The translations under genes and the position numbers were made by a program. Shown piece by piece: positions 5,608 through 56,138 of a stretch of DNA of 64,000 nt (position 1 is the first letter of the stretch; each line of letters opens with the position of its first letter). The stretch covers positions 53,273,554 to 53,337,553 of the forward strand of contig OX485803.1 in the NCBI GenBank assembly GCA_950295325.1, written 5' to 3'. This stretch comes from Polytrichum commune (lineage: Eukaryota > Streptophyta > Polytrichopsida > Polytrichales > Polytrichaceae). The notes under the pieces were generated by a model. That model was not told the origin of the DNA. It saw only the letters and a list, made by a program, of their open reading frames with translations, and made no database searches.

Positions 5608-5713
5608 AAAGAGAGAACAAGAATGCAGAAACCAAAAGGTCAGAAAAAAATGAAACCAATGGTTGGAGATTCACAAACTCTTCTCTTTGCGATTAAAAAA
5701 CTAGGATGTAGGA

Positions 5714-6660: not shown

Positions 6661-6699
6661 CAAATGCAATATAAAATCTACCTACTTGAACCAAGTGTT

Positions 6700-17600: not shown

Positions 17601-17660
17601 CTCTACTGGTCACACCATTGGATTGACAAGATTGAAATGCATAAATTTAAAGGAAGAGCA

Positions 17661-19349: not shown

Positions 19350-19439
19350 AAAGAGAGAACAAGAACGAGGAAACCAAATTTTGAAATGAAAATGAAATTA
19401 ATAAGTTGGACAAGATGTTTTGGACCAAAGAACTGAACT

Positions 19440-21365
19440 AGAGCTAGACAAATGAGAGCACCCGAAATCTGAACCTAGAGCCGAGGCTTCACATTGTTAG
19501 AATCTAACCTGAAATGAGGCCATCAAATCCAAAACATTAAGTGAGACCTGAAATCTGAACCTATATCCAGGGCTTCAATGTGTTTGATTTTAACCTGAAA
19601 TGTGGCCAACTAGACTTATATAAAGTGAGCACCCGAAATCTCAAACTAGAGCCGAGGCTTCAAAGTGTTAGATTCTAACCTGAAATGAGGCCAACTACAA
19701 ATATATAAAGTGAGCACCTGTAATTCGAACCTTGAAGCCGAGGCTTCAAAATGTGACCCTCTTGACCTCAAAATGAAGGTTTCGGTCCCGAAACCCATAT
19801 ATTGGACAGCCACATAATGTGAGAACCTCATATCTAAGCTTATAGGTTTCTTTCAAAGACTTAGATTCTAACCTGAAATGAAGCTAACTAAACCAACATA
19901 AAGTGAGCATGTGAAAAATCAAACTAGAGCCGAGGCTTCAAAGTGTTAGATTCTAACTTGAAATGAGGCCATCCAAACCAACATAAAGTGAGCACCCGAA
20001 TTCTCATACTAGAGCCTAGGCTTCAAAATGTTAGATTCTAAATTGAAATGTGGCAACTAGACTTATATAAAGTGAGCACCTGAAATCTCATATATTGGAC
20101 ACCCACATAAAATGAGACCCTGAAATCTAAGCCTATAGGCCACTTTCAAAGATTTACATTCTAGCCTGAAATGAAGCTAACTAAACCAACATAAACTGAG
20201 CATGTGAAAAATCAAACTAGAGCCGAAGGTTCAAAGTGTTAGATTCTAACCTGAAAAGAGGCCAAACACACATATATAAAGTGAGCACCCAAAATATCAA
20301 ACTAGAGCCGAGGCTTCAAAGTGTTAGATTATAACTTGAAATGAGGCCAACTAGATATATATAAAGTGAGCACCTTTAATTGAACCTTGAAGCCGGGGCT
20401 TCAAGGTGTGACCCTCTAGACCTCAAAAGGAAGGTTTCGGTCCCGAAACCCATATATTGGACAGCCAAATAATGTGAGAACATGATATCTAAGCTTATAG
20501 GCCACTTTCAAAGACTTAGATTCTAACCTAAAATGAGGCCAACTAAAACAACTTAAAGTGCGCACCCGAATTCTCATATTAGAGCCTAGGCTTCAAAGTG
20601 TTAGATTCTAACCTGAAATGAGGCCAACTAGACTTATATAAAGTGAGCACCTGAAATCTCAAACAAGAGCCGAGGCTTCAAAGTGTTAGATTCTAACCTG
20701 AAATGAGGCCATCCAAACCAACATAAAGTGAGCACCCGAATTCTCATACTAGAGCCTAGGCTTCAAAATGTTAGATTCTAACTTGAAATGTGGCAACTAG
20801 ACTTACATAAAGTGAGCACCTGAAATCTCAAACTAGAGCGGAGGCTTCAAAGTGCCAGTTTCTAAGTTCAAATGAGGCCACTTAGAGTTAGAGTCTAACC
20901 TGAAATGAGGCCAACTAAAACAACATAAACTGTTTACCTTAAATCTGAACCTAGAGCCGAGGCCTCTTATTGTTAGATTCTAATCTGAAATGAGGCCAAC
21001 TAGATAAATATAAAGTGAGCACCTGTAATGTGAAACTTGAAGCCGAGGCTTCAAAATGTGACCTTCTAGACCTCCAAAGGAAGGTTTCGGTCCCGAAACC
21101 CATATATTGGACACCCACATAAAATGAGACCCTGAAATCTAAGCCTATAGGCCACTTTCAAATATTTACATTCTAACATGAAATGAAGCTAACTAAACCA
21201 ACATAAAGTGAGCATGTGAAAAATCAAACTAGAGCCGAGGCTTCAAAGTGTTAGATTCTAACCTGAAATGAGGCTACTTAGGGACCTTCTAATTGGGGTT
21301 CGGTCCCAAACGCCATATATTGGACATCCACAAAATGTGAGAACCTGAAATCTTAACCTATAGCC
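19440..21365. repeat. Copy 2 intron satellite, minus orientation
   Basis: The same satellite family as at 15-17.6 kb but inverted (TGAAATGAGGCCAACTAGAC, AGCCGAGGCTTCAAAGTG, TATAAAGTGAGCACCCGAAA). It fills an intron that is only about 100 bp in copy 1. Dyads GGTTTCGG-TC-CCGAAACC lie at 19779-19796, 20433-20450 and 21083-21100, with a degenerate one near 21297. Confidence 0.9.
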
Positions 21366-21386
21366 CACCATCAAAGTTCACATATT

Positions 21387-22310
21387 TTACAAAATCATTA
21401 GGACTATTCCGTGATGCGCCTGAAGTATGAAATTTGTAAACACATGTAATGGTAACGAATACCAAGTCTTCTGAGACTTCTTACCCTTTTTGAGGTCGGT
21501 TGGACTCAAAATGTCATTGAATTGTTCAATTGACATAAGACCATACTTCTGAACCCTGAAGAGGGTATGGACAATGTTGGTCTTCACATGAGAGTCCTCT
21601 GTATGTCTAAATACAAAAATCAAATGGAAGATATTAGATTATCGTAGTAAGAAAGAAAGTGAAATCATATTGAATTTTCAATAAAAGATTATATATCAAA
21701 AGAGAATGAACATACTTGTTTATGTTGTGCATGACTTGCATAACAAGTCCATTTTTCCCCTTTGTGTCAAGGAGAATTGAATCCACCAAATAATGCCAAT
21801 CCTCATCAGTTCGGTGAAGTCTGTCAATGTGATTTAACCAAGCTTGACGCCTATGGTTGCTGTTGCACACAAAAAACATCAAATTTGTGAATGGAGCCAA
21901 CGCTGGATCCGAGAGGAGAAATGAGTTGAAAATGACGTTTTTGGCGTCCCAAATAGGACCCCAAGAAGCTTTATCAGCTTCCGTCACTTCATGGGTATTT
22001 CCGTCTTCATTGGTGGTTGTAACATAAAAGACCGAAACGCCTTCCCTGTATCCATGCACAAATTTTTGCTCGAGCTTAGCAAGATCGGATGCCAGAGTTG
22101 GCCGTACCATTGGCATTGCCATCAATCTGCACAACGGAATATTAAATCGCGAGGAACTGTTTGGTTGAAATCTCAAGCTTGTGATCGTGGCCACAGAGTT
22201 AACTTTCTGCCTAGTCCGAATCTCATCCTTACTACCTAGAAAGTGAGCATCATCTCCAAGAGACTCTTCTTCTACCTCATGCTCGTCCTCTAGTATATCC
22301 ATATCTGAAA
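21387..22310 (-). CDS. ParB-methylase fusion gene, copy 2: ParB/Srx-like exons
   Basis: The main exon (about 22310-21720) and the HTEDSHVKTNIVHTLFRVQK exon (about 21607-21430) match copy 1 closely. The lead-in VRPTLASDLAKLEQKFVHGY is kept, but the signature reads CNSNHRRQAW where copy 1 has CDGNHRRQAW. The Asp-Gly of the DGNHR motif is therefore lost here. In ParB/Srx proteins this motif lies at the nucleotide-binding or catalytic pocket, so copy 2 may bind without catalysing, or may be decaying. The acidic leader (EDEHEVEEESLGDD) is preserved. Confidence 0.62.
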
Positions 22311-22429
22311 GCTTTCCCTCCGATACTTGTGTCGAAGGTGGCAGGATATAGCATGCACCTACCAAAGAGTCAACACATTGTAGATCAAAGTAAGTATCAT
22401 TTGACCCAAATTGATAATGTTGCTTTGTA

Positions 22430-24336
22430 ATTAACTTCTAACCATTAGAGCCATATAATATGAGAACCTGAAATCTTAGCCTATAGCCCATCTTCAAGTA
22501 CTAGATTCTAACCTGAAATGAGGCCAACTACACACATATAAAGTGAGCATTTGAAATCTCAAAGTAGAGCCGAAGCTTGAAAGTGTTACTTTCTAAGTTG
22601 AAATGAGCCCACCTAGGGACCTCCCATTGGACAGCCACATAATCTGAGAACGTGAAATCTAAGCCTAGAGCCCAGCTTCAAAAACTATATTCTAACTTGA
22701 AATGAGGCCAACTAGACATATATAAAGTGAGCACCCGAATTCTCAAAGTAGAGCCGAGGCTTCAAGGTGTGAGATTCTAACCTGAAATGAGGCCATGTAG
22801 ACTTATATAAAGTGAGCACCCGAAATCTCAACCTAGAACCGAGGCTTCATTCGTTAGCTTCTAACCTGAAATGAGGCCACTTAGGCACCTCCAAATGAAG
22901 GGTTCGGTCCCGAACCCCATATATTGGACAGCCACATAATTATGAGAACTTGAAATCTGAGCCTATAGCCCTCCTTCAAGATGTGAGATTCTAACCTGAA
23001 ATGAGGCCAACTAGACATATATAAAGTGAGCACCCGAATTCTCAAAGTAGAGCCGAGGCTTCAAGATGTGAGATTCTAACCTGAAATGAGGCCATGTAGA
23101 CTTATATAAAGTGAGCACCCGAAATCTCAACCTAGAACCGAGGCTTCATTCGTTAGCTTCTAACCTGAAATGAGGCCACTTAGGCACCTCCAAATGAAGG
23201 GTTCGGTCCCGAACCCCATATATTGGACAGCCACATAATGTGAGAACTTGAATTTCTGAGCCTATAGCCTTCTTTCAAGGTGTGAGATTCTAACTTGAAA
23301 TGAGGCCAACTAGACATATATAAAGTGAGCACCCGAAATCTCAACCTAGAACCGAGGCTTCATTCGTTAGTTTCTAACCTGAAATGAGGCCACTTAGGCA
23401 CCTCCAAATGAAGGGTTCGGTCCCGAACCCCATATATTGGACAGCCTCATGATGTGAGAACCTGAAATATGAGCCTATAGCCCTCCTTCAAGGTGTTAGA
23501 TTCTAACCTGAATTGAGGCCAACTACACAAATATAAAGTGAGCACCCGAAATCTCAATGTAGAGCCGAGGCTTCAAAGTGTTAGATTCTAACCTGAAATG
23601 AGGCCAACTAGACATATATAAAGTGAGCACCCGAAATCTCAATGTAGAGCCGAGGCTTCAAAGTGTTAGATTCTAACCTGAAATGAGGCCAACTAGACTT
23701 ATATAGACTTAGCACCCGAAATCTCAAAGTAGAGCCGAGGCTTCAAAGTGTTAGATTCTAACCTGAAATGAGGCCACTTAGGCACCTCCAAATGAAGGGT
23801 TCGGTCCCGAACCCCATATATTGGACAGCCACATAATTATGAGAACTTGAAATCTGAGCCTAATATAGCCCTCCTTCAAGGTGTGAGATTCTAACCTGAA
23901 ATGAGGCCATGTAGACTTATATAAAGTGAGCACCCGAAATCTCAACCTAGAACCGAGGCTTCATTCGTTAGCTTCTAACCTGAAATGAGGCCACTTAGGC
24001 ACCTCCAAATGAAAGGTTCGGTCCCGAACCCCATATATTGGACAGCCACATAATGTGAGAACTTGAAATCTGAGCGTATAGCCCTCCTTCAAGGTGTGAG
24101 ATTCTAACATGAAATGAGGCCATGTAGACTTATATAAAGTGAGCACCCGAAATTTCAACCTAGAACCGAGGCTTCATTCGTTAGCTTCTAACCTGAAATG
24201 AGGCCACTTAGGCACCTCCAAATGAAGGGTTCGGTCCCGAACCCCTTATATTGGACAACCACATAATGTGAGAACTTGAAATCTGAGCCTATAGCCCTCC
24301 TTCAAGGTGTGAGATTCTAACCTGAAATGAGGCCAA
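22430..24336. repeat. Copy 2 large-intron satellite, left part
   Basis: Minus-oriented satellite as above, in blocks of roughly 200-300 bp. The dyads are the second version, GGGTTCGG-TC-CCGAACCC, at 22900, 23199, 23413, 23797, 24014 and 24227 (start positions). The array is cut at 24336 by a large insertion and resumes at 36433 with the 5-bp duplication CTAGA on both sides. Confidence 0.9.
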
Positions 24337-40195: not shown

Positions 40196-43100
40196 ATGGC
40201 CACCATCCGAGCACTGCACCATTCCATCCCCCTTATGATCCCTCTAGGAGATGATGGTCTAGCCAAAGTCGCGGAGTCGTTCCTTAGTCTGAGGTTTAGA
40301 TTCCACCCAGACTCAATTCATGTCGAGGAAGAGGTCTTTGATGACAACGGTGACTTGAGTCACACTGTCCTTCAGATGTCCTTTCGCATTGACGATGGTA
40401 GGGTTTGGTTCTTGCTCCCTGCAAAGTACAAGGCCATAGGCGTCACCGAGTCGGAGATGGCCACCACAACTATGTTGCTTACACCAGGCGTGTCCCTCAC
40501 CTCCACCACGCAGGCTCCTCTTCTGGCGACGGTCAAGAAGGAGCCCAGCATCCAAGAGGTTACCTTGCTCAGCGATGACTCTGATGATGATGTGCCACCT
40601 GCCTCAGACATTACCCCACCTCCATCGCAGGATCAGCCCTTCATCAATCCTCTCAGGATTCCACACTCGCTTACTGTGAGTCAACCACCTACTTCCAGAC
40701 CCAAGTTCACCCAGGTGTCTCCATAGATCGTCCCAGTGTTGTCCACCACTTGAAGTTGCTTGCAACCCGACCAGGGTTCAAGAACGTCCTCAAGAGTATT
40801 GATTATGAATCTGTTAGGCATGAGAAGGTTGAGTTCCTCCCATCAGTTTTTGACGGCGACGTCATCTTTGAGTTCCCTCCTCTGGGACCTGATGCTCCCC
40901 ATTCCCATGCTAGACTCATGTTCGGTATGGACAAGCGTTTCGACGGTCATGCTTGGTGTAGGACAAAGACTTCTAACATTACCAATGATCTCGGCTTGAT
41001 CTTCCGGTTTTCCAATTGTGTTGGCCATCTCTGTTGTCATAACGAGGCATGTGATTACCTCAACCGCCCCAATCGAGCCACTGACTTCAACGAGACCGAA
41101 TGGGAAGGCTGTACCGCCTCACCCTTCACTGCAGATGTTGATCCCCCAGCTGGGTCAACTCTCGTTTGTAAGGTCTGTAAGACACCACCCTACTGTCTTG
41201 ATACTTGCCAAGCTAAGATGTACTATGTTTTTGGCAAAGGTGACATGACCCGTGCATGCATCCATATGGGTCTTCACCATCACCCCGTTTCGCATGGTGT
41301 CTGTAGAGAATCTAAGGTCGAGATTCATGATCTCATTGGTAGAGAGGTTGAGAGGACTCCCACCGCCACCAACTCTGCCATTGCATTGGCTGCAAGTAAA
41401 GAGTTCCTGGCCAAGTATCTTCTACGCACGGGATCTGATCCCAATAAAGTTATGGACCTCGAGTCCATGAAGTTTGTCATGGACAGGTACCAACACCTCA
41501 GCACCCCGAGTATTCGTAACACAGTCACTTCCTTCAAGCGCATTGGCCGAGGGGGGATCATTGACAGCATCACCGGACTGAGAGGTCAGAGTAGTTGGCC
41601 CTATGTGCAAGAAAACAAATTCCCAGGCCAAGGAAAGCTGTTGGAGAAAGTCTACGTGTTCAAGATGTCCGAGGTGGGCCCTGGGTCTGGAGTGGACCTT
41701 GTCAGGAGAATGCAACCACACGGTGATTTGCAGGATGCTTGGGTCATGTTTGACCATGTCAAGCGTGTCAAGGGGTGGACGACCATGGCTTGCCATGTCT
41801 ATGACTCGGCCTACTGCCGGGTTATGACTATTGTAGTTTGTGATATGCAGTCTGAGGATGTCGCGGCGCAGAGCCTTCTATGGCATGGGCTCAATGAAGT
41901 TATGCTCAGACATGGCATTGCTAAAGTTAACTTCAAAGGGTTCATGGCGGACAGTGCACAGGCCAATTGGAATGCAGTTAGGATTATCTATGGCAACGGT
42001 GATCCCAAGGTTCCTATGGAGTCTCGCGAGAGGACATGTCTATTGCATTGGACAGTGTCTATGGAGCGCCACACCGCCACCCACATCAAGCCCGACCTCC
42101 AACAACAACACAAGTTGTTATGCAAGCAGTACAAGGATGCCAAGACTCCCGAGCAATCCGAGTCCCGTTATCTTGCCATCCGGGCTTGGTGGCTTTCCTC
42201 TGGAGCTGCATCCGAGGAAGGAATCAAAGACCTTGATACATGGCTTGCATTCTGGCACTTTCGTTACCGTCAATGGGGTGGTTTCATGCAATTAGTGAGT
42301 ACCCACCCACAGTGTGTGTTTCAGTGTTTTTGGTCTGAACTTTTTTTTTGGATTTTTTTTGGTTTTTTTGGTTTGGTTTTTTGGTGTCAGTTTAGGCTTT
42401 CACCCTGTTTTTGTACAAAGCGTTCTCACTACATTTTTTTGATTTCTCTCAGAATTTCACAGATTCTGAGTTGGCAGAGATGCCATCTTGCAACCTCTCC
42501 GAGACAGTCCATAACAAATGGCTTCAGCAGTTTGGAAACCATGGCTCTGATCTATATGTTGCGACCGTGGATGATTTCGTGAGGGCGTTCATGCAATGTA
42601 CGAACTACTACGCCTACTTGAAGGGTGATCGCTCTGGTACTGGCCCAGGAAAAGAAGAACTCCGCCTTCGTGCTGCACAACGATCCGGTGACGCCAAGAG
42701 AATTGTTGCAGCACTGGAGCACGTGCCTGGAGCAGAGCATTGGTGCACCCGCAAACCCCAACTCGAAGGAGAAGAGGTCTTTGGCACCACCAAGCGCAAA
42801 CTTGATATGCCCCCTGGTTCTGAGCAGGATTCACATAGACCCGACAAGGTCAGCTTCTCTCATCCACGAGTGAGCACTAGGTCTACCAAGGCACGTACTG
42901 ATTCCTCCACACCATCAGACCTGCCCCTAACACAATCCCCCGAGAAATCGATTCCACAACGGGTCACCCACGTCAATAACATTCAGGAGACCCACTGCGA
43001 TGTCTCCAAGTGGCACATTTCTAGACTTCCCAAGACTTCTGCCAAGGCCTGCTTCACCATGCAAGCTCGCACAAAGACCAAGTGCACACAGAAGATCGTT

Positions 43101-43845
43101 CGGCACGGTAAAAGCACTCCAGCTCCTACATACACTGGCTACATGCGCGACTACAAGAAGAACAAGGAATTCTTGACACAGTTCTTCTTCTGCAACTACG
43201 ACATCGAGAGATGTGTCAAAGGCACCAGGAGGAAGTGGGTGCAGCACCGTCCGGATGTCCCGGACGTTTGGCCTGTTCTCACTGGGACAAACCTCACTCT
43301 GCAGGAGGTTCTGGCCCTTGAAGAAGGGGGATTCCAACTTCAGCAGCGTCAAGATGTGTCACCCAGAAGACTCTTCGGCGACTCCTCCAATGTTGCCTCA
43401 TCCATGGCTGAACTCCCTACCCCGGCCCAAGCTGATCAATACCCTACGCTCAGGTTTGGAAAGAAGATCGGACGTAGTAACAACGGACCATGCGTGCAAC
43501 AACGCAACAAGTGGGAGTCAGCTCTCAACATCGACGGACAAATCACCTCCGTCACAATGATACCTCACCCAGGGATCGGCTGCATCATTCTCTGCCAGTC
43601 CCGAAAGAAGGCTAAGGTGGAAGACTACCGTATCACTATCAACACCTTCCCGTCGTGCACCTGCCCGGATTTCGTGGAGATGTCAGCAAGAGCACTTGGG
43701 TGAACTGCAAGCACTTGTACTTCATCTTCCGTGTGACCTGCAACTTGGATCAATACCAAGACACTTTCATCCATGCTCCGAGCCTTAGTTTCAATGAAGT
43801 GAAGCACCTCCTCGAAAGTGGCATCATGAAGCATGTGGGACCTTA
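40196..43845 (+). CDS. MULE-type transposase with zinc-binding N-terminus and SWIM finger (unit 2)
   Basis: Starts at ATG 40196. An acidic/Pro-rich leader is followed by a Cys/His region: CHNEACDY, VCKVCKTPPYC, then RACIHMGLHHHPVSHG with the HHHP end seen in WRKY-GCM1/FLYWCH-type fingers. The RNase H-like core includes VYDSAYCRVMTIVVCD and GFMADSAQANWNAVRIIYG, with RTCLLHW after it, in the spacing of Mutator-like transposases. An intron with a GTGAGT donor near 42292 and a CTCAG acceptor near 42452 splits the core. A C-terminal SWIM finger has CTCPDF and then CKHLYFIF. Two frame breaks are visible: near 40.70-40.75 kb and near 43.68 kb, between the two halves of the SWIM finger. These are small deletions, an unseen intron or errors, so activity is uncertain. 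Confidence 0.75.
42292..42452 (+). other. Transposase intron
   Basis: T-rich interval with GTGAGTACCC at the left and TTTCTCTCAG at the right. Splicing joins the frame ending GGFMQL to NFTDSELAEM. About 160 bp. Confidence 0.75.
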
Positions 43846-44400
43846 GTGTGGATACCTATAGGAGCTAGGCTGCCCCCCCTTATTTATAAGTTGTCGCTAA
43901 GTATTATTGCGTTGAGTATACTATAGTATGAGTGCACGTTTTCCGAAAATATCGCCGATATATCAGACCTATCATTATCTACATGATGTGAATTGTATTC
44001 GTTTTTAAATATCTATAAAGGTTTCTAAATATTTATGGGTCTCTCCTTCCAACAGTAGTTTTAGATGTTATTGAATGGTACGAGTTTTGCTACTTTGCTT
44101 GAATGCTTGAATGCTTGAATTTTTTGACTTAGAATTTTCTCTTACGTTGTGACCATAGCCTATGATTATCCGGCTCCCACCATAATATGGACAGTCAAAA
44201 GTTCCCTGGTTTAAGTAAATCATGTGAACTAGTCTCTCTGAAAGGTACCCTAAAACCAAGTCTCTGTCCTGAAAGCCCTCAAAATTTGCACGGAAATAGG
44301 TCCATCATTTTTACTAAAAAAAGAGGTCCCACGATTTTTACTATTTATATTTTCTAAATTTGGAAGTTTTATTACTATAATTGGAAAGCGTTGACTTTTT
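43846..44400. other. 3' end region of unit 2
   Basis: No gene. AT-rich, with a three-fold TGCTTGAA repeat near 44097-44120. Leads into the right terminal repeat. Confidence 0.5.
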
Positions 44401-44446
44401 TCTGCTCACCGCTCACCGCTCGCGTCCCACCGCTCACACGGTAGCG
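44401..44446. repeat. Right terminal inverted repeat of unit 2
   Basis: TCTGCTCACCGCTCACCGCT at 44401-44420, then CCACCGCTCAC and GTAGC. It is the reverse complement series of 12493-12536. The outermost bases (GTAGC side) also match the left end. No target duplication could be matched outside it. Confidence 0.7.
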
Positions 44447-45068
44447 TCGTTGGGATGGGCGCTCGTAAAGAGAACGGCACGCAAACGGAAGACAAGCAAA
44501 GCAAAAGCGCGAAAGGGGTTTAGGGTTGAGGAGGGCACCTTGGCTTTGGGGACGTCCATGCGGGGAACGGTGGGAACGAGGGGGGCGTCGACGGGAGCAT
44601 CCGGAGCCGATGGAACTATTGTATTGGTGAGTGGCGGGGGGGAGTCGAGGCGTGGAGGGCCCACGATCGCGGAGGACGTTGCGGGGGGAGGAACGGAGTC
44701 GGCGGGGGAGGTGTGGCAACGGGGGCCTTCCATGCGGAGACGCCGGCTCGGCCCGCGACGAGCGACGGCGTCGTCCCTCGAGGGCGAGAAGTGTCCCAAA
44801 CGAACGAGCGTCCGTTTCTCCTTGGAGAGGGGGGAGGGCGACGGGGCGTAGGCGCGGGCGACAAGTGCGGGGGGCGGGCTGTTGACGACGCCGTCGTCGA
44901 TGCCGACGTCGCGGGAGTAATCCACTGCCGAGGCCGCGTCCACCGCCGAGAACTGGTAGAGGGATGGCATTTGGAAGTCCGTGACGTCGCGGGAAGGGGA
45001 GCCAGGGGGCGAGATGGGACGGGAAGGGCCGTCGAGTACCGGGGCGTCACATATGGGGGCAGACTAAG
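44443..45068 (-). CDS. Exon-like GC-rich ORF abutting the unit 2 end
   Basis: An open frame follows a CTCCTTAG acceptor near 45069 and reads PICDAPVLDGPSRPISPPGS, then SLYQFSAVDAASAVDYSRD, a Pro/Ser-rich part and FRAFALLVFRLRAVLF. It ends at a stop created within the terminal repeat of unit 2. Base composition is like the GC-rich coding exons of copy 3, not like the neighbouring AT-rich DNA. It may be a host or element exon truncated by the insertion of unit 2. No family recognised. Confidence 0.4.
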
Positions 45069-45174
45069 GAGGCCAACAACAACAACAACAACAACAACAA
45101 AAACAGACATCCAAAAACAGAGCAAACATTAGATATGTGAACCACATGATAAGAAGCAAAGACATGGAGGCATT

Positions 45175-45942
45175 TCAAATCAATTTATTGAGTTTGGTGA
45201 GCATCATGATGCTCTTATATACATTATCGCGGGGGCTTAGTGCCGCATTGCCGAAGGGGTTGGACCTAACAAAAAATGGGATGCTACCGGCGTGGAGCAC
45301 GAGCCTTCTAAGGTAGGGGGCTAGCCTATCGACCAAAAATGTGTCTTGCCTATCGCCGGTCCATGTGTCCGGGAAGATGACGTTTCCCGGGGGGTTCAAG
45401 ACGCTCTTGGTGGGGCTGTCGTCGATGAGGAGGGTGTTCTCAGGAGTCGGCCACCACCCGTGCGGCGTCCCTTGCAGACGGGGGACGCCTCGCCAGAGTC
45501 TCGAGCGGAGGACCTTGAGGAACTGTTGTCCTCCGCCCCGACCGCCAAACTTGGGCACCGGTTGACCTTTCTCGTCGAGTAGCTCGTCGCAGTCCTCTTG
45601 GCCGAGGACGAGGCACGGGCTCGGGAGATCGCGGAACAAGAAGTGGACGATGGGCTCCGTGTTTTCCATGACCGTGGAGCTCCACACAATGACGTGAGTG
45701 AACTCGACCACCTCGCGAAGGAAGTCCCGCAGGCCGGGACGGGCGCGGACGGCCTTGCGGTTTATGAGGGTGTCGAGCTCGCCGTCATAGTTCCTTTCGT
45801 CGGGGTGACGGAAGGGACGCGTGGGAACCCTAGGGATGTGTTGGGTGTGACACAAGACCCCGTTGAGGTCAAAAACTACGAAAGGCTTGTTCCAAGTGTG
45901 AGGTCCACTGGTCGAGGGGTTGCGACCTATCTCCGGGGGGTC
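45175..45942 (-). CDS. Copy 3: FCP1/NIF-type HAD phosphatase exon
   Basis: Begins at a CACAG acceptor (exon start 45942). It contains KPFVVFDLNGVLCHTQ (HAD motif I, DLNG form as in many plant FCP1-like proteins), RPGLRDFL, VIVWSSTVMEN (motif II region) and LLIDDSPTKSVLNPPGN (motif III/IV), then a typical FCP1/NIF C-terminal layout. The first Asp and the DD pair are present; the second Asp of DxDx is Asn in DLNG. The exon phase (0) matches the donor GAG/GTAAAT at 46517 of the preceding exon. The simplest model is that the HAD domain is the C-terminus of copy 3. A separate gene with an unseen first exon is the alternative. Confidence 0.7.
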   Translation of the reverse strand, partial: DPPEIGRNPSTSGPHTWNKPFVVFDLNGVLCHTQHIPRVPTRPFRHPDERNYDGELDTLINRKAVRARPGLRDFLREVVEFTHVIVWSSTVMENTEPIVHFLFRDLPSPCLVLGQEDCDELLDEKGQPVPKFGGRGGGQQFLKVLRSRLWRGVPRLQGTPHGWWPTPENTLLIDDSPTKSVLNPPGNVIFPDTWTGDRQDTFLVDRLAPYLRRLVLHAGSIPFFVRSNPFGNAALSPRDNVYKSIMMLTKLNKLI

Positions 45943-46079
45943 CTGTGATGAACAACGCGACTAGTTTAATGCTATGATCCAATAATGAAATTTTTGCGTA
46001 GAAAATGAAGACGATGCATTATGGAAAAAGACGAGGAAGTGAAGAGAGTGCAAGGAAAATGTGCACAAGGGCACACTTG

Positions 46080-46490
46080 CGAACGACCGTTCGTGAATGA
46101 AGGCTGCGGGGGGCGGTGCATTTACGAGCGGTCGTTCGTGAAGGAGGTGGACACGGGGCCGCACCCTTTCACGAACGAGCGTTCGTGAATGAGGTGGATA
46201 TACAAGAATGAACATAATCGCATCAACATCCACAATATACAAGAAGGGGTGGAGGGCACAGAATTTGAAGCAATGCAATGCAGATAACATGGGCCCATAT
46301 ATTAATCCATTGAATATTTACATTTCTCACGTGATAGTCTATCACATTTTCCTAAGGCAAAATGATGTCATGTCCTACAAAACTGGTCGTCCATAAGGGG
46401 GGTCGCTGAAGAGGGCACGCTTGGGCTAGGGGGTGTCGATGAAGAGAAAAACACCGCGATGTTAGTGAGGTTACGAACCGCGTTCGCAAA
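46080..46490. repeat. Copy 3 last-intron palindromes
   Basis: Dyads at 46080 (AC centre, first base changed), 46124 (one arm base changed), 46171 (AG centre, perfect ACGAACG arms) and a weak one at 46471. They lie in the intron between the disordered exon and the HAD exon. Confidence 0.85.
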
Positions 46491-46516
46491 AAATGGTATT
46501 CTCAGAGGAGATTTAC

Positions 46517-47968
46517 CTCGTCATCCGGGGGAGGGGCAGCGACGCTGGACCGAGCAGCAGGTCCCTCCTCAACAATTAACGAACGCGCGTTCGTAACCTC
46601 CACAGCCGCAGCCGCCTCCGTTTCCATGGCGTCGGCCTCACGCTCCGACTGAGAGGCCTGTGTCTGCTGGATGCGCAGCACGTTGTCATCCTCGGCGCCC
46701 AGGTCGAGCGCGTCCATCCGGACATCCTCCATCCACGCGGCAGGGGTCTCTTCCACGTCCATCCCCTGCTCTCCTGCTGCGTCATTGGGGCTCCCCTGCG
46801 TGTCCTCCACAATGACCATGTCAGTGTGTCGCGCAGAGTCATCGCCCTGTCTGTCTACTACCTTGGGGACGACGGTGAAAGATGTTGTGTCGGTGTCTGA
46901 GTGCAGTCCTACCCTTGAAGGGGGAGGGGTGAGGGCTGCAGGACCTGAAGATTCACGAACGCGCGTTCGTAAATCTTCGTCCTCCTGGATGGCCGCCGCG
47001 ACAGCAACGTGGGAGGTGGTCGAGGGAACTTCTGGGGGCGGAGGAGTCCCAACAGGCGTAGGGTGGGGCGCGGAGTGGTGTGATGGTCCTCCTGGGAAAT
47101 GGCCCTGCGGGGGGTACTGGCCTGGCTGGGGGTATTGCGATGGGTATCCTCCAGGGAAGGGGTAAGCCGGCTGGGGGGGCGCCGAGAAGCTCTGCATCTT
47201 GTTGAGCATGGCGAGGATGGCGTCCGTCTTCTCGTTGGATTGCCTTAGCTCCTCCTGAATTGCTTTCATCTTCTTCGCATTCTCCTCAGCAGCCTTCGCC
47301 ATGTCCTCCTTCATCTTCTGCTCGAGCTTGGCGTTAAGCTCGGCGACGGAGAGGGCCTCCTCCTTGACCCGCTTGTTCTTGTCGAAGTCGACCCCCAGCT
47401 CGACCATTATCTCCATATCTCCCTCGTCCTCGTCGGAGACCTCGATGATTGCCCCCGGAGGCAGCTCCACGTAGGGGGTCTTCTTCATCTTCCGCCTAGT
47501 GTTGCGGAAGTGGTCCAACGACGGGCGGGAGCGTTGGTCCAGAAGGTCGAGGTTCTCCATCTTGGGAACCACGACTGGCCTGGGCGACACCGATGTCGAG
47601 CATCCCCCGGGAGTGCCGAATGCCTCCGCCCCAGACGTTCGCGCGGGGAGGACATCTTGGGTTGTCCCCGCGGACGACCCCGTGTATCCACCCGGAGTCC
47701 CCTGCACGTCGGATGGGTTTCCCGACAGCCCCAAAATTCGCAGAGGCGTGACGTCCAAGGACCGGAGGATCGCCTCGACGTTGTAGGAGGGCGCGGGCTC
47801 GTCGTCGTCCGTCTCCATCGCGGGCATGCCCTCGTCGACGGGCATGTTGATGTCCGTCCTCGGGAGGGACATATCCTCCAGGTCCATCGTGGAGGCCTTC
47901 GCCCTGTGCACCTGGAAGTCCTCCTCATCGATGGCGTCAATGAAGCTGTTGACGACCAGCCCCAGCAT
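46517..47968 (-). CDS. Copy 3: exon with end of methylase-like domain and long disordered region
   Basis: Starts at a CTCAG acceptor with MLGLVVNSFIDAIDEEDF, which aligns with IAALEADVDIFEALL of copies 1 and 2 (the acidic loop after motif I). The rest is low-complexity: Asp/Ser/Pro-rich, a Lys/Glu coiled coil (ELNAKLEQKMKEDMAKAAEE), a Pro/Gly/Gln tract and an acidic tail. It can end at a GAG/GTAAAT donor (46517), or read a few codons further to a stop at 46502. Two ACGAACG..CGTTCGT palindromes fall inside this coding exon (46579 and 46955). Confidence 0.62.
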
Positions 47969-47998
47969 CTGAGATCCAAACAAATACGTTAGAATATA

Positions 47999-48087
47999 CG
48001 AACGTGCGTTCGTAAACATCAACGACGAGAAACAATGTCATCAAAACCCAAGACAAGTTGAGGTGAACTTTACGAACGAGCGTTCGT
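47999..48087. repeat. Copy 3 intron palindromes (pair)
   Basis: Perfect ACGAACG-NN-CGTTCGT at 47999-48014 (TG) and 48072-48087 (AG), filling much of a 141-bp intron. Confidence 0.9.
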
Positions 48088-48109
48088 AAATATTAGTTGG
48101 AGAGCTTAC

Positions 48110-49435
48110 CATCGCAGTGTACATGAACTTGCTGCCTCCACAAACGTTGTACACGGTCTCTCCGCTTATTGCCACGCTCTGCAAAACGGAGACGTAGAAC
48201 TCCAACCTGAGTTCCATCGCCGGGAAGATAGTGTACAAGGTCTCTTGCAGCAGATCCTTGGGAGGGGGATGGGGGATGCTGTAGATCTTCTTGAACGTAG
48301 TATTCGCCTTGACAGGGGCTCGCCCATTCCGAAGCGCGTTGTACGTCAAGAAGACGAGGCTGACCGCCCCCACCTGTTTGTTTCCCCTGGCCTCGTTGAT
48401 GGCCACGATCCCTTCCGTCTTGGCGGGCACGTAAGTGTTGTGGAAGATGCTGTACTCGAATTTGATCGTCTTCTCGTACAGGTCGGTGACGACAGACATC
48501 TTCTCCTGCTCCACTATCCACAGCCAAACGTGAGGCTCCCTCATGTCCGGCGACTTATGCTCCTTGAACTTGGCCATGAAGGGGTTGTAGAAAGGCATGT
48601 CCTTCCCCCCCTGCCTCGACGCACCGGGGATCCCCCTGAAATCGATCAGGGCAAATGGGCACCCCCGTCGATCCTCCCTCACCTCGGCCCTGTTCATGGT
48701 CCGGTCCCACTTGGAAAATGTGACCCTCTCCACTCCGGTTGTCACCAAACAAAATCTGGCCACTCCTTCGAATATGGCCAACCTCTTCCGCGCCAAAAAG
48801 CTTCTGTATTGCTCCACCTCCTGGGGATCCGTCTCGGTTTTCTTTGTCCTCTTGTTCCCCTTTTGCTTCAAAATGGAGGCGTGCTCCTTGACAAGACAAC
48901 GCATTGAGGCTCCGAAGATGTTGTAGTCGACCTTGAACATCTTCCAGCTGGCCCAATTAATGTCCCCGTCGGCTAGGATGAGTGCGTACTCTGGTATTAG
49001 GGCGCTCAACTCCCTCATTGCAGCAGTTTTCAGCTTGCGGTGTTCGCACCATTCCTTGATGGAATACGTGCCGGGCTTGTGTCTTGGCCTCTTCAAAAAT
49101 ATCTTCGGGTATGGGATGGTTCTTCCCACTGTGTTCCCAAGAAGATGCACCGCGCACCTCTGCAACTCGGACTCTGTTAACCCTTGAAGGGACCTGAAGA
49201 ACTCCCTCAGTGTTGGAGGGGCCTCCCCGGTTTTCTCCGCGCTGTATTTCTCCTTGGTGTCGGGGTTGACCAGATCGCCCGAGCTGTGCGCATCAAAAAA
49301 TTGTGTCCACAACTCCCAAGTGTCCCTGTTGCAACAGATGAGGCGGAGCTCACCCTTGAGCTCCAAGACAGACTTGGTTGTTGTAGACTTCATGTCGATG
49401 GAGGAGAACTTGTCCACCATCGCGTCGCAGAATGC
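48110..49435 (-). CDS. Copy 3: middle and degenerate methylase-like exon
   Basis: One long exon between a CTGCAG acceptor (49435) and a GTAAGC donor (48110). CPFALIDFRGIPG occupies the place of LILADIPEG in copy 1, and PHVWLWIVEQEK that of GAIILFHPF. Later, ELRLEFYVSVLQSVAISGET is followed by VYNVCGGSKFMYTAM, matching LMQMLIEACSSPWDIILDCTAATG by position and hydrophobic pattern. The motif I residues needed for SAM binding (D-x-G-x-G) are not kept, so this is a methyltransferase fold without likely activity. Homology to copies 1 and 2 is inferred from order and spacing, not strong identity. Confidence 0.55.
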
Positions 49436-49469
49436 CTGCAGCAAGAAAAACATCAGTAACGCACAAAAT

Positions 49470-49548
49470 ACGAACGCACGTTCGTAAGTTTGAATGTCAA
49501 AGAACTTGAAATGTTGAATGTCAAAGATGTTTACGAACGTTCGTTCGT
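49470..49548. repeat. Copy 3 intron palindromes (pair)
   Basis: Perfect dyads at 49470-49485 (CA) and 49533-49548 (TT) within a 121-bp intron. As in the 47999 intron, two sites per short intron. Confidence 0.9.
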
Positions 49549-49556
49549 AAACTCAC

Positions 49557-50849
49557 CTTCCATTGTGGAGACGGCGTCTTCGCGTTCTCCCTTTCTTTAG
49601 GGGGGCACCCGTGGGCGACCCAGACGTCCCTTGCAGCCACTATGTTGGCTGCCCACGACGCCTCGAAGGCCTTGATCTTGTTGCCGGAGTTGAGGAAGGT
49701 GGAAATCTTCCGTAGCTTGTCCCAATCGTCCGACCACACCAAGAACGCCTTCCAGTAGCGCAAGTCTGCCTTTAACTCATGCTGGAAGTTGTTGTCCTTG
49801 AGGATTATCTGGGACGCCTCCAAGCTATGTTGTCCGTCTATGATCCAGAACTCTCCATTCTGGATCCGTGGCCAGTCCTTCTCCGTCGGACGGGATGTCA
49901 GCCCCTTCGGCATGACGCAGACGGTCTGCCTATCCCACTTGACGTTGTTCATTAGATTATTTATCTGCCATTTCACACCACCGCTCTCGCGAGACCGAAC
50001 CACCCATTTGTTGGGGGACATCTCGCACTTGAAGCAGTCCACGTTGAATGTGAAGTGGCGTCCCATGGGCCAGCAATCCTTCGAGTAGTTGTTGAAGTCT
50101 CGAAGGATCCTCGTGGCCTTCACAGCGTCAGGGTTCTCGCCCTTTTTCAAGGGTGTAGGCATTACGACAGGCGAGGTCACCTCCGCGGTCTCTGTTACTC
50201 CCGATTTCTCCATCTCGTCCCTTGTCCTCTTCGATGGCGTGGAGTGTCTGCTGGGGCCCTCCGTCGCCCTGCTTGCGGAAGGCACAGGCCTGGGTGCACT
50301 TCTAGAGCCTCCTGCCCCTGATGTGGATGGTTTCCTGGGGCTCTTCTTCTTGTTGGCCTCAGTGACCACACTGTTGTATTTGGAGATGTTCAATGCCAGG
50401 GCGGTCAGTTTCCTTGCCGTCCAGTATGGGCTCAACGCATATTTGGAGAAGAGGCCCTCCATGTCGAAGTGCTTGGCATCTTCGATTACGTTCATTTGGG
50501 CGTATTGGTAGGAGAATGTATGTTTTTGGTAATGCAACAAGAGGTTGATATGATCCTTCTTGTTCTTCATGTCCAGAATTACATAATCCCCCTGGGCCTC
50601 TATGGACTCTATCTCCCACGTCTTCATTTGAACCCACTATTCGGGCTGGTCCGGTCTTGTCTCCAGCTCGTAGGTGAATCGCATGCAGAAGAGGCCGTCT
50701 GCGGACTTCTCTGGCAGAGCCGTCCACTCCCCCATGAAGTCGTCCTTGGGAACAAAGTTGTCGTTGCCGTTATCGTCGGACACCGACTCTGGGAGGCGAT
50801 CGACCTGCACTGCGAAAATCTCAATCGCGCTTCTGCTTGATCTTGCCAT
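49557..50849 (-). CDS. Copy 3: N-terminal exon with DGQHS ParB-like domain
   Basis: ATG at 50849 (MARSSRSAIEIFAVQVDRLP) opens a frame that runs to the GTGAGT donor at 49557, except for an in-frame TAG at 50639-50637 between RPDQPE and WVQMKTWEIES. Coding character continues across it. A Ser/Pro/Lys-rich linker is followed by FTFNVDCFKCEMSP, VCVMPKGLTSRP and FWIIDGQHSLEASQIIL, a DGQHR-type ParB/Srx signature with Ser for Arg. ISTFLNSGNKIKAFE resembles the helix after the DGQHR strand. The TAG makes it a pseudogene, a read-through case, or a sequence error. An alternative start at MKTWEIES lies 12 bp downstream. Confidence 0.62.
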
Positions 50850-50883
50850 CTGCAACAGAATATAAACATTTAGTGTTGAGTTT

Positions 50884-51532
50884 ACGAACGAGCGTTCGAT
50901 AACGACATGCAAATCCAAGATACTACACATTATGAATGTATTTGTTGCAATACATTTTGATTATCTTTACGAACGATCGTTCGTAAAGGAGGTGGTTTTC
51001 TGGGTTGATTTTTCACATTTCAGACCATCGTCACAATAAAATAAATGTTTACAATAGTAAACACGAACGTTCGTTCGTGAGTGATACCCACCAGGCCCGA
51101 CACTACTATCTGCATTTTGGGTTTGTTGCATAAAATAAGGCATTCATCTATTTGATTCACAATCTTTTCATCTTATTTTACGAACGATCGATCATAAATA
51201 AATGTGTTTTGGTCCGCCAAAACAAGATTGCAGTCTTTTACGAACGCGCGTTCGTAAGTAGGTATTCATATTTAAATATTTCTAAGTAATTGTGTATTTG
51301 GTTTAAATATATTACAGAGGGTTTGAATTTTGAATTGTTTAATTGTTGGTTTTCGCAGCTTACTTTACGAACGCGCGTTCGTAATGTTCTGGATTTGTGC
51401 ATTGGGTTTAGGGTATTTACGAACGATCGTTCGTAAGTTGCTTGGCTAGTGCTTTAGGGTGCGGGTATTTACGAACGAGCGTTCGTAAAATTGGCTCAGA
51501 CTATGTATTCGCATTTACGAACGATCGTTCGT
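50884..51532. repeat. Dense palindrome cluster upstream of copy 3
   Basis: Nine sites in 650 bp: 50884 (one change), 50969, 51063, 51180 (degenerate), 51240, 51367, 51419, 51471 and 51517. Seven have perfect ACGAACG/CGTTCGT arms, usually extended to TTACGAACG/CGTTCGTAA. The DNA between them is AT-rich and not repeated, so this is not a satellite. It lies just 5' of the copy 3 start, where a promoter is expected. Confidence 0.92.
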
Positions 51533-53276
51533 AAATGTGGCTAATTTGGATATTTTCTTGCATATTGTCCGTATATGTACGAATACGTATACGATGGACT
51601 ATACTCCTTCCGCCCGCAAGAATGCTTGCAAGTGCTTGGCCAGAATGATTGAATTGAAGAAAAAAGAAAAAATAATCAGAACACAATTGAACTTCAGAAT
51701 GAATATCAAAGCTTAGAATGCATGCAAAACCTGCCAAAGCTCATAATACAAACAAAACAAATGGAAATCAACAATGAACCAATTCAGGATGTGGGTTGTG
51801 AGTTTAGAAGGATTGATCTACTCACATTGAAGTGTTCTAAACCCAAACTGTTCCTGGCTTGCTGAAAAAACACGAAACTACACACAAATCTACAATGTTG
51901 GTTGTTGAGATGCGCCCTTGCACCACTCACTCCTTTATCACAGTTTCAAGCCCTCACTCTTTATGTGCAAACCCTATCACCTATTCTGGTGCAGCTACAA
52001 GCTTCAAGCTTCAAGCTTTCAAACCCCAATATTGCAACTCTTCAGCTCTACTAACATTCTTACATCCCTCAAGCTCTCTACTCACAAACAGTCAATTCTA
52101 AAGCAAAATATGCAACTCTCAAACACAACTTGATGCAAAAACGAAGAAGGCTCTAAAATCTGCAAGAGCTTCGCTCCGAATACGCTAAGCTCTCCACTCC
52201 TCCTCTCTCGGTTCCAAATGACAATGAGGAGGAGAGAGAAGGGGCGCGGGGTGGTAGCCGCCCCCGCCGCTAGGGTTTCCCCATGGCTGCCACGTGGCGA
52301 CGGTCCATTGGCGTCGTTCCACGTGGCATGTGGAGGGGTGCGGGTATGGGTGGAGATGGGTGATGGGGGAAATGGGAGGAGATAGGATGGGGACATCGGG
52401 GGATGGGGGGAAATACGATGGGAGATGGATGTAGAAGTAATCATGAAGGCAATACAAAGCATATGTATATGTATAATATGGGATGGAAGCATTAATCACA
52501 ATAACTTCAAGAGCTTAATATGAAGACATGAATTTTGTGTGCCGTGTCCCCTTAGTACCTTTACATTTGTATTCCTTGTAAACATATTTTAAAAAACAAC
52601 TTTAAGTTAATGAGTATTGCACAATGTATGTCATTTAGTGGGTTTTCGATGAAGAATCCACTCCCAAGGATGTGGATATGGTGTTCTGAAGTATAGAGTT
52701 TTCATGAACGAGATAACTTTCAAGTTGAACCATGGTTCTTCAAATATATATTACATAGTACATAAAGGACCCAATTTGACATTGTTGAGAGGGGCTATTC
52801 GTTTTCTTGCAAGAGGTGGAGGACGTCAATTAATTTAATTTCCAATAGGACGACAATTAATTTAATTAGGTGTCAAATTGAACTAACAATCGTATAGTGC
52901 ATTGAACTTTAATTTTTAACAATGATGTAATTGCATTTAACCAATGAGCCATATTGGTCATTATTTCGCTAGCATCAAATGTATGATATCATAGGTTTTC
53001 AATGAAGAATCCACCCCTAAGGATGTGTATATGAGGTTTTCAATTATACAGTTTTCGGGAACGAGATTTCTTTCAATTTGAACCATGGTTTCTCAAATAA
53101 ATATTACATTCATAAAGCACCAATTTGAGATTGTGGATAACGGCTACCATCAACTGTCAGTTTCATAAGTTTAGTTAGTGCGATACAAGGTTTTTAGGAG
53201 TCAATATTGTTTGTGTGTGTAATGTAACGTATTAACGACCACACCACAAACCCTAAAACCACATACACAACTATCA

Positions 53277-53347
53277 CAAACCCTAAACCCTATAACCACA
53301 TACACAACCATCACAAACCCTAAACCCTAACCCTAAACCCTAAACCT
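53277..53347. repeat. Interstitial plant-type telomeric repeats
   Basis: Several AAACCCT/AACCCTA units in imperfect tandem, matching the plant telomere repeat TTTAGGG on the other strand. Short, so probably a repair patch or relic. Confidence 0.75.
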
Positions 53348-54047
53348 TGCATTCCTACATTTTTTCTTCTTCTTACCAACCTTTCTTAATATATGTGTCC
53401 ATGTTGTGGTCTATGGGCATGTCAAAGTGGTCTATCGATGTTGGTTGGATTGGAAATTGCTTTATTCGGTTCCCAATAACTATAATAATTGAGAATCATG
53501 CCAATAATTGTCATTTTGAGATTCAAAATTAATAGAGTTCGGATAAAGCTTTGGTTCGGGTGAAAAGTGAGTGTTGAAATGCTCCATGTCTCCCCTTAAT
53601 AGTATTGAGTGCTATTTGATCACACAATCCAAACTTAATCTCATGATTATAACATGCATGTCTTAAGACTTTAGTTTAAATCAATACTTTCAGCTATGAG
53701 CATGCACATACTTCTCGTAGGATGTAAAACACATAATTGTAAGTGTGACTTGTCGTAAGTATGGTTTCATTTCTTATGATTACTCTATCAAATTCACCAT
53801 TCCAAATTAATTAAACATTTCCACACATGCCATTTTAATGCATTATTTTGACACGTATGGCTACATTTGAATTAAGCCCTAACTTACATCTAGATATGAT
53901 TAGTTCATTGTGGATTAACCAAACTTTTTAATGGTTTTCACGCGCTTGGTGAGCATATTACGGGCATGTTTCGATGTGAATCATATGATCATCCCTATAA
54001 TTTTAGGGGCCTCCACAACATGTTTTTACTCGAGTTTAGCTTATTGT

Positions 54048-54050
54048 GTA

Positions 54051-54084
<34 letters not shown>

Positions 54085-54104
54085 CACACACACACAATCA
54101 CATA
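54048..54104. repeat. (TG)n(TA)n(CA)n microsatellite
   Basis: TG repeats, then TA repeats, then CA repeats make one self-complementary tract of about 55 bp. Confidence 0.9.
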
Positions 54105-54608
54105 CATTCATAGCATATATTAGGTCTCCATTGTTAATTAACTTGGACTTCACACCTTGGTCGCAAATCAGTTAATATTATGTATTAACCAGCATCATAT
54201 TTTGACATTATGTATCTATTATGTACATATTTATATTCATGACACCTTGGGAACACCTAAGGTATGCGACCGATTTACATATTTTCAATATCATGTTGCG
54301 TGCATGCAATACATGTTCCTTACATAATGCTATTTATATAATCGCGCATGCATGAAATGTCATATTGGTAGGTCAAAGTAGGCGGCGGGAATCCGCTTTT
54401 TAAAGAGCATCCAAGGGATTTTGAACCCCCGTAGAGAAGTACTTAAAGCTCTTCCCCCACAGCAAAGCTCTTTTCAGCGGCAGACGCCGTGTGCGCTCCA
54501 GACCCGACGGAGCGCGCGGAAGCCATTGTCCTGTCCGCCTACCCCACACCTCCCAGGTACAGGACAAACTGTAGACTCCGTATATACCGCCGTAAATACC
54601 GGAGGTTT

Positions 54609-55392
54609 ACGAACGCGCGTTCGTAAAGCATACGTTATGGCAAATAAATGGGTCAGAGAAATGGTGGGTAGTTTACGAACGTGCGTTCGTAAGTACCATA
54701 TATGAGCACACTCTGCGTTCAGAGACAGAGAGACAGATATAGATATAGATATATATATATATGTGTGTGTGTTTGTGTACAGATATGGGTCGTCATATGA
54801 ACTGTGCATATAACTAGTTATATGCAATGAGAACATGTCGGTGATATACGAACGTGCGTTTGTAAATTTGACATCCAGGATCATAGAGGTGTGGGTTTGT
54901 AATTATCCCGCGTTCCCGTTTTCTCCAAATGCATATAGGATTGACCACAACTTACGAACGTGCGTTCGTAAAGACGACCTGTGATTTATGTCCACGCATG
55001 CAGCAACATCATTCATCGACGTCTAAACATACGTCTCGTATTTCCCACACGTTCAGATGAGCCGTATGAAATTAGATTCTTCCAATTCACGAACGTTCGT
55101 TCGTAAATACCACCTGGGAGTATGTCCATCGCATCCAACACTAGACTTACAGACACCTTCCTGTATATAACCAAAGTATGACAGAGAGATACGAACGGTC
55201 GTTCGTAAATATGCCGTCCCATTATTTACTAGGGTACGACGTGATGTGGTACACCCTATCATTTTCCCGACAGAGGGTGGCATGTCTTCAGAAAACGTAT
55301 TGCCTGAGTTATCACAATGTCGACTTGTCAAAGTGTTTTTTGCATCTACTGTTTTTCCAAAAACTTACGAACGGTCGTTCGTATACATAACC
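54609..55392. repeat. Second palindrome cluster
   Basis: Seven sites: 54609 (CG), 54675 (TG), 54848 (TG, one change), 54954 (TG), 55089 (TT), 55191 (GT) and 55377 (GT). Six have perfect 7-bp arms. Spacing is 66-190 bp and irregular. No gene is recognised in this interval. Confidence 0.9.
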
Positions 55393-55609
55393 GCCTCAAA
55401 CATTTTGCCATGGGTGGACAACAACTCATATCGATACCCTTTACGAATGATATATAACTAGATCACAAGGGAGGTAGTAGACTTTCCCAGAAGGGAATAG
55501 AAATAACATTTCCCTTTTCTTTCCCACCTTCTTTGTATTGATGTGGGAATATGAGCATGTGGTAAAAATTGGACCATTACCACCTTGCTGAATAGGAAAG
55601 TAAAGGTAG

Positions 55610-55930
55610 AACACCATGTGAGAAACCTCAACTAAAAACCATGTGAAAAAACCTCAACTAAAAACCATGTGCAAAAACCTCAACTAAAAACCATGTGGAG
55701 AAATTGCAATTGATTACCATGAGGGAAAACAACAATTGAAAACCTACTGGAGAAGCCTCAATTGAATTGCATGTGGAGAAACATCAATTGAATTGCATGT
55801 GGAGAAACATCAGTTGAATTGCATGTGGAAAAACATGAATTGAAAACCATGTGAAAAAACATGAATTGAACACAATGTGGAAAAAACTCAATTGAAAACC
55901 ATGTGGAGAAAAATCAATTTAGCAAAAATG
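55610..55930. repeat. Minisatellite, about 25-bp unit
   Basis: Repeated AACCATGTG(G/A)A(G/A)AAA followed by CTCAACT or CATCAATTGA, about a dozen units decaying to the right. No coding potential. Confidence 0.85.
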
Positions 55931-56138
55931 TGAATGTGAAGCTGAAACCAAATGGTAAAGCACACGTATGAAGTCGTCATCCTACTCTCAGTCTCTGCTA
56001 GAACCACCCTACAGATTAGAAACAGCAAACTAAGATCTGCACTACAAAAACCATTCTGATCACAAAGAAGGCACCTACAGTGTCCTAACCAAACTAAGAC
56101 CTCCCTAAAGCCTGAATGTTTCACTCAAGATTCATCAC

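Follow-up and report, generated by a model that had tools for sequence, protein, structure and literature searches.

Scattered free-centred palindromes in a Polytrichum commune transposon family: candidate binding sites of its own ParB/methyltransferase-like protein

In a 64-kb stretch of the Polytrichum commune genome (contig OX485803.1, positions 53,273,554 to 53,337,553; the whole stretch is referred to as the window), one copy of a DNA transposon, copy 3, is scattered with short palindromes whose arms are well conserved while their two central bases are free. The carrier of these sites is a transposon family and not single genes, and comparison of sequences indicates that the palindrome arms change from family to family together with a ParB-like protein encoded by the element. 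We read the palindromes as predicted dimer sites of this ParB/methyltransferase-like protein of their own family, most likely keeping the element expressed and mobile by anti-silencing, and assign this reading a probability of roughly 0.6.

Scanning the window with ACGAACGNNCGTTCGT at up to two mismatches returned 26 matches, compared to 0.07 expected from 100 shuffles, none of which reached 26. Twenty of the matches are exact, five have one mismatch and one has two, in agreement with a sequence-only reading of this DNA, which had listed 26 sites of the form ACGAACG-NN-CGTTCGT. All of them lie within 44,800-55,382, and outside 44,000-56,000 the window contains no site, even when up to three mismatches are allowed. 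The interval proposed for them, 46080 to 55392, holds 25 of the 26, but the site at 44800 falls just outside; as this site lacks the AT extension and is identical in all three copies aligned below, it may have been kept for another reason. Nine sites form a proximal 5′ array (50884-51532) and seven more a distal one (54,609-55,382), while two sit in each short intron, both the intron counts and the nine in the 5′ flank being as described before, and two in coding exon 3. The central dinucleotide takes exactly the eight values previously named (AC, GT, AG, CG, TG, CA, TT and AT) in the window, and thirteen across copy 3 (W, for window copy) and three further copies from the same genome (A, B and C). 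The 16-mer palindrome is part of a longer one: 87 distinct sites pooled from the four copies have a consensus of about ATTTACGAACGNNCGTTCGTAAAT, beyond which no base reaches half. An extra site with a one-base deletion near 46,480 came from the alignment of A, W and C.

In this alignment the arms are well conserved, whereas the flanks and the centre have drifted apart. At noncoding sites with ungapped counterparts, and bearing in mind that arm conservation is biased upward because the sites partly anchor the alignment and our selection rule permits up to five mismatches, A and C share 201/210 arm, 287/430 flank and 18/30 centre bases (15 sites; two of the 17 A-C sites are coding and were left out). 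The corresponding values are 187/196, 249/395 and 15/28 for W and C, and 218/224, 420/558 and 21/32 for A and W. Identity in the A-C noncoding background is 0.78, with 83 of 111 background CpGs kept. The intron sites, which are pinned by exon borders, show the same arm conservation, and the two exon-3 sites match the pattern exactly in A, W and C, even at synonymous positions. Several upstream sites are missing from one or even two of the three copies, suggesting that sites continue to be gained and lost. Together, the kept arms and diverging surroundings lend good support to the earlier proposal that single sites were kept or seeded independently. The observed-to-expected CpG ratio is 0.96 in the element, 0.70 in its flanks and 0.53 in window 1-24,000; in the 5′ region of copy 3 it drops from 1.0 to 0.75 once the sites are removed, and the CpG excess there is partly due to the sites themselves.

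Copy 3 is truncated. Its blastn homology to copy A ends at 44450, and a tblastn comparison of the window with the DUF7869 open reading frames (ORFs) of copy B found no match. Its three-exon gene, which has an in-frame TAG in exon 1 (50637-50639), encodes the protein of interest. For the exon 1 ORF (49521-50627), the predicted fold matches ParB bound to cytidine triphosphate (CTP) and cytidine diphosphate (CDP), and the exon 2 product is predicted to adopt a beta-class methyltransferase-like fold; by these models, a ParB-like domain and a DNA methyltransferase domain are both present in one accessory protein. Across the whole of exon 2, a DPPY-type catalytic motif, [DNS]PP[YFW], occurs in none of 31 homologues, every one of which has DFRx[IFL]P. 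The protein shows a DGQH motif at the place of the bacterial ParB GERR. Pfam returned only matches below the cut-off for exons 1-3 (N-SET at E 0.013 in exon 2, HAUS-augmin3 at E 2.5e-4 in exon 3), NCBIfam nothing for exons 1-2 and weak matches for exon 3, and PHROGs nothing for exons 1-2. A PDB sequence search gave none for exon 1 and a best E of 0.22 for the exon-2 profile, and no relative was found in viral contigs.

The link between palindrome and protein comes from relatives of exons 1 and 2. In public relatives, intron sites were read as peptides where the frames of exons 1 and 2 run into the introns; a tail was counted as a miss if it lacked an exon-end match or a motif, and ambiguous RT.VR tails were left unassigned. 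Relatives at least 66% identical carry the copy 3 motif (A-type) in 12/26 exon 2 and 9/23 exon 1 tails and never the G-type, in which one base is changed per arm, whereas relatives 43-61% identical carry the G-type (4/21 and 6/15) and never the A-type. On decisive tails, with kinship ignored, this split has a Fisher value of 2e-8. At 39% identity or less (exon 2), 8 of 18 tails show TTTGGGTCG/CGACCCAAA or its symmetric variant TTTCGGTCG/CGACCGAAA; shuffled tails almost never gave a match. Further tails suggest more motif switches, with the family-3 arm variants TTTCGGTCG/CGACCGAAA and possibly TTTGGGCC/GGCCCAAA in P0052, P0047 and P0054, and an LRPRGRK in P0023, P0030 and P0075 that would fit ACGCCCG or ACGTCCG arms, another second-family variant.

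These families are present in the same moss genome as well, with 91 scored matches for P0024 and 90 for P0051, and we read one locus each of the second and third families (L080 and L081). L080 has eight exact ACGGACG-NN-CGTCCGT sites, five upstream, one in intron 1 and two in intron 2, in addition to one A-type site upstream and a shortened one in the exon-3 ORF. L081 has twenty exact TGGGTCG-NN-CGACCCA sites, of which eleven are upstream, three in intron 1, three in intron 2, two in exon-3 ORFs (frame unsettled) and one downstream; genome-wide this pattern occurs 10,055 times against 1 for the control. Seventeen family-3 palindromes at 78-bp spacing were also seen at C1:616091-617340, upstream of a family-3 gene (exon 2 at C1:623047). 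Both loci retain the free 2-bp centre and the same gene order with a phosphatase ORF downstream; tblastn picked up the latter within L080 and part of it at the end of L081, and found no DUF7869 within the 10 kb and 9 kb covered, which may not reach that far. With three families keeping the free centre and changing both arms, the dimeric site with a 2-bp spacer that the sequence-only reading envisaged appears well founded. The phosphatase-like ORF adjoins the ParB-like gene at the loci read from all three families, an unexplained second accessory gene.

A search of the genome (408 Mb, 64 contigs) found the exact pattern 5,602 times, versus 4 for a reversed control pattern. The first 100 listed of these sites all fall on C1. 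Of the 99 gaps between them, 94 measure under 5 kb, where a uniform spread would give about 7%; a scored gene copy is found within 8 kb of 60 sites, a single cluster at C1:640-646 kb accounts for 33 more, and 7 are left over. This cluster matches pieces of the element at 68-85% similarity with their order kept, and the stretches of it examined contain no ParB-like exon. These numbers do not bear out the possibility, raised at the outset, of a motif equally dense throughout the genome without nearby fusion genes. The exon 1 protein has 111 scored matches among 1,044 candidates, and since many of them score identically on different chromosomes, the family is large and young. Copies A (16.06 kb) and B (12.43 kb) are 98.8% identical over 9.4 kb; the stretch with the left array is missing from B. 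Part of the sites sits in tandem repeats, namely in the left array of A, at the C1:640-646 kb locus and in the upstream array of L081. A satellite or simple repeat was rejected for copy 3, where the flanks of most sites are unrelated; the statement that the motif is not a satellite thus holds there, but not fully for other copies.

The element ends are imperfect inverted repeats starting AACACTATATTCG. Among 12 copies examined, 11 have both ends in view, and nine of these show an exact 4-bp target duplication and two none; in copy C the left end is altered and a right end of this kind is missing. CACTA (EnSpm) elements make 3-bp target site duplications and Sola elements 4-bp ones; a CACTA reading of the ends (CACTATATTCG) was dropped because the duplications are 4 bp. 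One arm encodes a DUF7869 protein (PF25273, E 1.9e-40, in copy B), and the divergent other arm the three-exon gene and the phosphatase-like ORF (PF03031, in the window copy). In both B and C, DUF7869-type ORFs and ParB-like exons lie on opposite strands (Pfam was run on B only).

The likeliest reader of the palindromes is the transposon's own protein, given its ParB fold, the symmetry of the arms around a free 2-bp centre, and the way the arms change along with the protein. A symmetric dimer of it would bind each palindrome, reading both arms and tolerating any central dinucleotide, and would gather at promoters, in introns and in the 3′ region within the family that encodes it. Once bound, it would most likely counter or replace epigenetic silencing by the host, much as VANC does on VANDAL elements. 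The identity of the binder, its dimeric state and the anti-silencing outcome are all things we infer; self-specific anti-silencing or marking is favoured because the sites, much as VANC targets do, sit at promoters, in introns and in 3′ regions. A bolder version, tentative at best, borrows the ParB principle: a dimer would load at parS-like palindromes, close into a nucleotide-dependent clamp and slide or spread over 10-16 kb. Its methyltransferase-like domain, no longer catalytic, would block or read DNA modification, and families would avoid cross-talk by changing arms and protein together. If so, a few dozen short sites would be enough to protect a whole element.

Other readers of the palindromes have to be considered. 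TnpA binds the subterminal repeats of En/Spm CACTA elements, a case of repeated short sites for an element's own protein, and the DUF7869 protein or a partner might similarly assemble on internal palindromes for excision. While the array does adjoin DUF7869-type ORFs in A and C, and the elements do have short imperfect terminal repeats, the sites are not subterminal (in copy A, the left end is about 3.9 kb away from the first exact one, and the right end about 1.1 kb from the last, which has one mismatch), the left array is lost from copy B, and it is hard to see why a transposase would bind inside the ParB-like gene, in its introns and exon 3. We regard this reading as improbable. The element also differs from TnpA and CACTA in its 4-bp duplications and its protein. 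A host transcription factor, its sites captured as promoter or enhancer elements, would fit the site clusters upstream of both divergent genes; yet a single factor would not explain three palindromes at corresponding positions in three related families, nor are sites in introns and coding sequence accounted for, which makes a host factor more doubtful still.

Two further ideas strike us as very unlikely. RNA hairpins acting as splicing or small-RNA signals are brought to mind by the two sites per short intron, one of which begins a few bases past the intron-1 donor, but 16 of the 26 window sites precede the start codon, by as much as 4.5 kb, and a hairpin with a fixed 2-base loop is unfavourable. 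Neutral spread as a small repeat, by tandem duplication or mini-insertion and without selection, would agree with the tandem repeats noted above; against it stand the mostly unrelated flanks in copy 3, the arms that outlast centre and flanks, the two exon-3 sites exact in A, W and C, and the matching changes on both arms between families, which such spread would not lead one to expect.

VANC proteins carry DUF1985, and VANDALs are Mutator-like elements (MULEs). No DUF1985 was found in the three exon ORFs (Pfam E<=0.1; about 70 N-terminal exon 1 codons excluded), and the transposon gene here encodes DUF7869 instead of a MULE transposase. As described in the available part of PMC5735166, VANC binding in Arabidopsis VANDAL transposons removes methylation from the element, the VANC21 motif YAGTATTAY is arrayed in one orientation, and the proteins are a transposon-encoded family whose related families bear different motifs. 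In what is available on VANDALs, as in the moss, a short motif that differs between families is dense in the noncoding DNA of its own family, among it the introns and the stretch in front of the transposase gene; unlike there, the moss sites are palindromes with a free 2-bp centre, accompanied by a ParB/methyltransferase-like protein and a DUF7869 gene. The sites of bacterial ParB-parS, Noc-NBS and KorB-OB are palindromic as well, and the ParB N-domain fold is predicted to be shared, whereas here we deal with a eukaryotic transposon, tens of sites per element, arms that vary between families and DGQH in place of GERR, and no segregation role is suggested. According to the accessible portion of the literature, parS is 16 bp long (PMC8494293), and ParB proteins load on it and spread with CTP.

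Closest in domain content is the Sola1-1_Ec32 kind of element, which the available part of PMC12477816 presents as a DNA transposon of >10 kb with an accessory gene opposite in strand to the transposase, encoding a ParB-like plus a DNA-methyltransferase domain. The moss element resembles it in length, strand arrangement and predicted domains, and binding and epigenetic modification of the own element were proposed for these algal proteins in that portion (PMC12477816). The protein class is thus not new. In contrast to the moss case, with its candidate sites co-diverging with the protein and 0/31 homologues with a DPPY-type motif, the same portion names no target site.

Table 1. Features of copy 3 in the window. 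Sites rest on the pattern scan; those at 46079-51532 and 44800 are also supported by the A/W/C alignment.
Feature	Position	Strand	Basis
Copy 3, transposon copy without DUF7869 gene and recognisable termini	44450..55392	-	blastn of A, B, C vs window
Exon 1, ParB-like domain (predicted); start at ATG assumed	49557..50849	-	splice site; fold matches
Intron 1 (GTGAG...CTGCAG), two sites	49436..49556	-	
Exon 2, helical region and beta-class methyltransferase-like fold (predicted)	48110..49435	-	
Intron 2 (GTAAGC...CTCAG), two sites	47969..48109	-	
Exon 3, C-terminal region, two sites in coding sequence	46502..47968	-	
NLI-interacting-factor-like phosphatase ORF (PF03031)	45175..45855	-	Pfam E 4.5e-13
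Site, distal 5′ array, centre CG	54609..54624	.	
Site, distal array, centre TG	54675..54690	.	
Site, distal array, centre TG, 1 mismatch	54848..54863	.	
Site, distal array, centre TG	54954..54969	.	
Site, distal array, centre TT	55089..55104	.	
Site, distal array, centre GT	55191..55206	.	
Site, distal array, centre GT	55367..55382	.	
Site, proximal 5′ array, centre AG, 1 mismatch	50884..50899	.	
Site, proximal array, centre AT	50969..50984	.	
Site, proximal array, centre TT	51063..51078	.	
Site, proximal array, centre AT, 2 mismatches	51180..51195	.	
Site, proximal array, centre CG	51240..51255	.	
Site, proximal array, centre CG	51367..51382	.	
Site, proximal array, centre AT	51419..51434	.	
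Site, proximal array, centre AG	51471..51486	.	
Site, proximal array, centre AT	51517..51532	.	
Site, intron 1, centre TT	49533..49548	.	also intron/splice reading
Site, intron 1, centre CA	49470..49485	.	also intron/splice reading
Site, intron 2, centre AG	48072..48087	.	also intron/splice reading
Site, intron 2, centre TG	47998..48013	.	also intron/splice reading
Site within exon 3, exact in A, W, C	46955..46970	.	alignment
Site within exon 3, exact in A, W, C	46579..46594	.	alignment
Site 3′ of gene, centre AG	46171..46186	.	
Site 3′ of gene, 1 mismatch	46124..46139	.	
Site 3′ of gene, 1 mismatch	46079..46094	.	
Degenerate site, 1 mismatch, beyond phosphatase ORF	44800..44815	.	

The rest of the window holds related and unrelated features. 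Window 1-479 belongs to another, nearly identical copy of this transposon and forms its right terminus; this would be a different or interrupted copy because the nearest listed gene copy upstream (C1:53252701, +) is about 14 kb farther away than expected. Copies 1 and 2 (3244-9634 and 15240-24240) contain more distant ParB-like ORFs, that of copy 2 being 73% identical to that of copy 1, and carry TTTCGG-NN-CCGAAA plus GTTAGANTCTAAC and TGAAGCCNNGGCTTCA, mostly within tandem repeats; TGTTTC...GAAACA of copy 1 resembles parS. Compared to families 1-3 by hhalign, the ParB-like and methyltransferase-like ORFs of copy 1 reached probabilities of 0.8 and 0.1 on a scale of 0-100, which is not significant, and the ParB-like alignment covers only 20 residues around DGQH/DGNH. 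With their palindromes mostly in tandem repeats and the copy 1 profile comparison not significant, these copies were not used as evidence for further members. A 26-bp tandem repeat of about 14 units (55594-55971) lies just past the distal array. Long ORFs occupy 40196-43703, of which 40750-42582 has no Pfam match above the cut-off; an ORF beside copy C resembles them by eye, and they probably belong to another repeated element.

The part of the literature searched contained no report of target sites or family-specific palindromes for this protein class and no paper on DUF7869, and among the papers that surfaced for ParB with plant, moss or transposon, PMC12477816 was the only relevant one. Candidate target sites can now be offered for the ParB-methyltransferase accessory proteins of algal transposons. 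Family-specific sites combined with an own protein suggest a self-recognition system, in which a regulator picks out its own selfish element from thousands of relatives; we consider VANC the best worked plant example of this. If our reading is right, the moss family would have evolved such recognition independently, using a different protein and a symmetric site, and a single genome would offer natural variants of that site. These variants make the protein-DNA recognition code and its evolution directly testable, and the system hints at ParB-like proteins acting on DNA within the eukaryotic nucleus.

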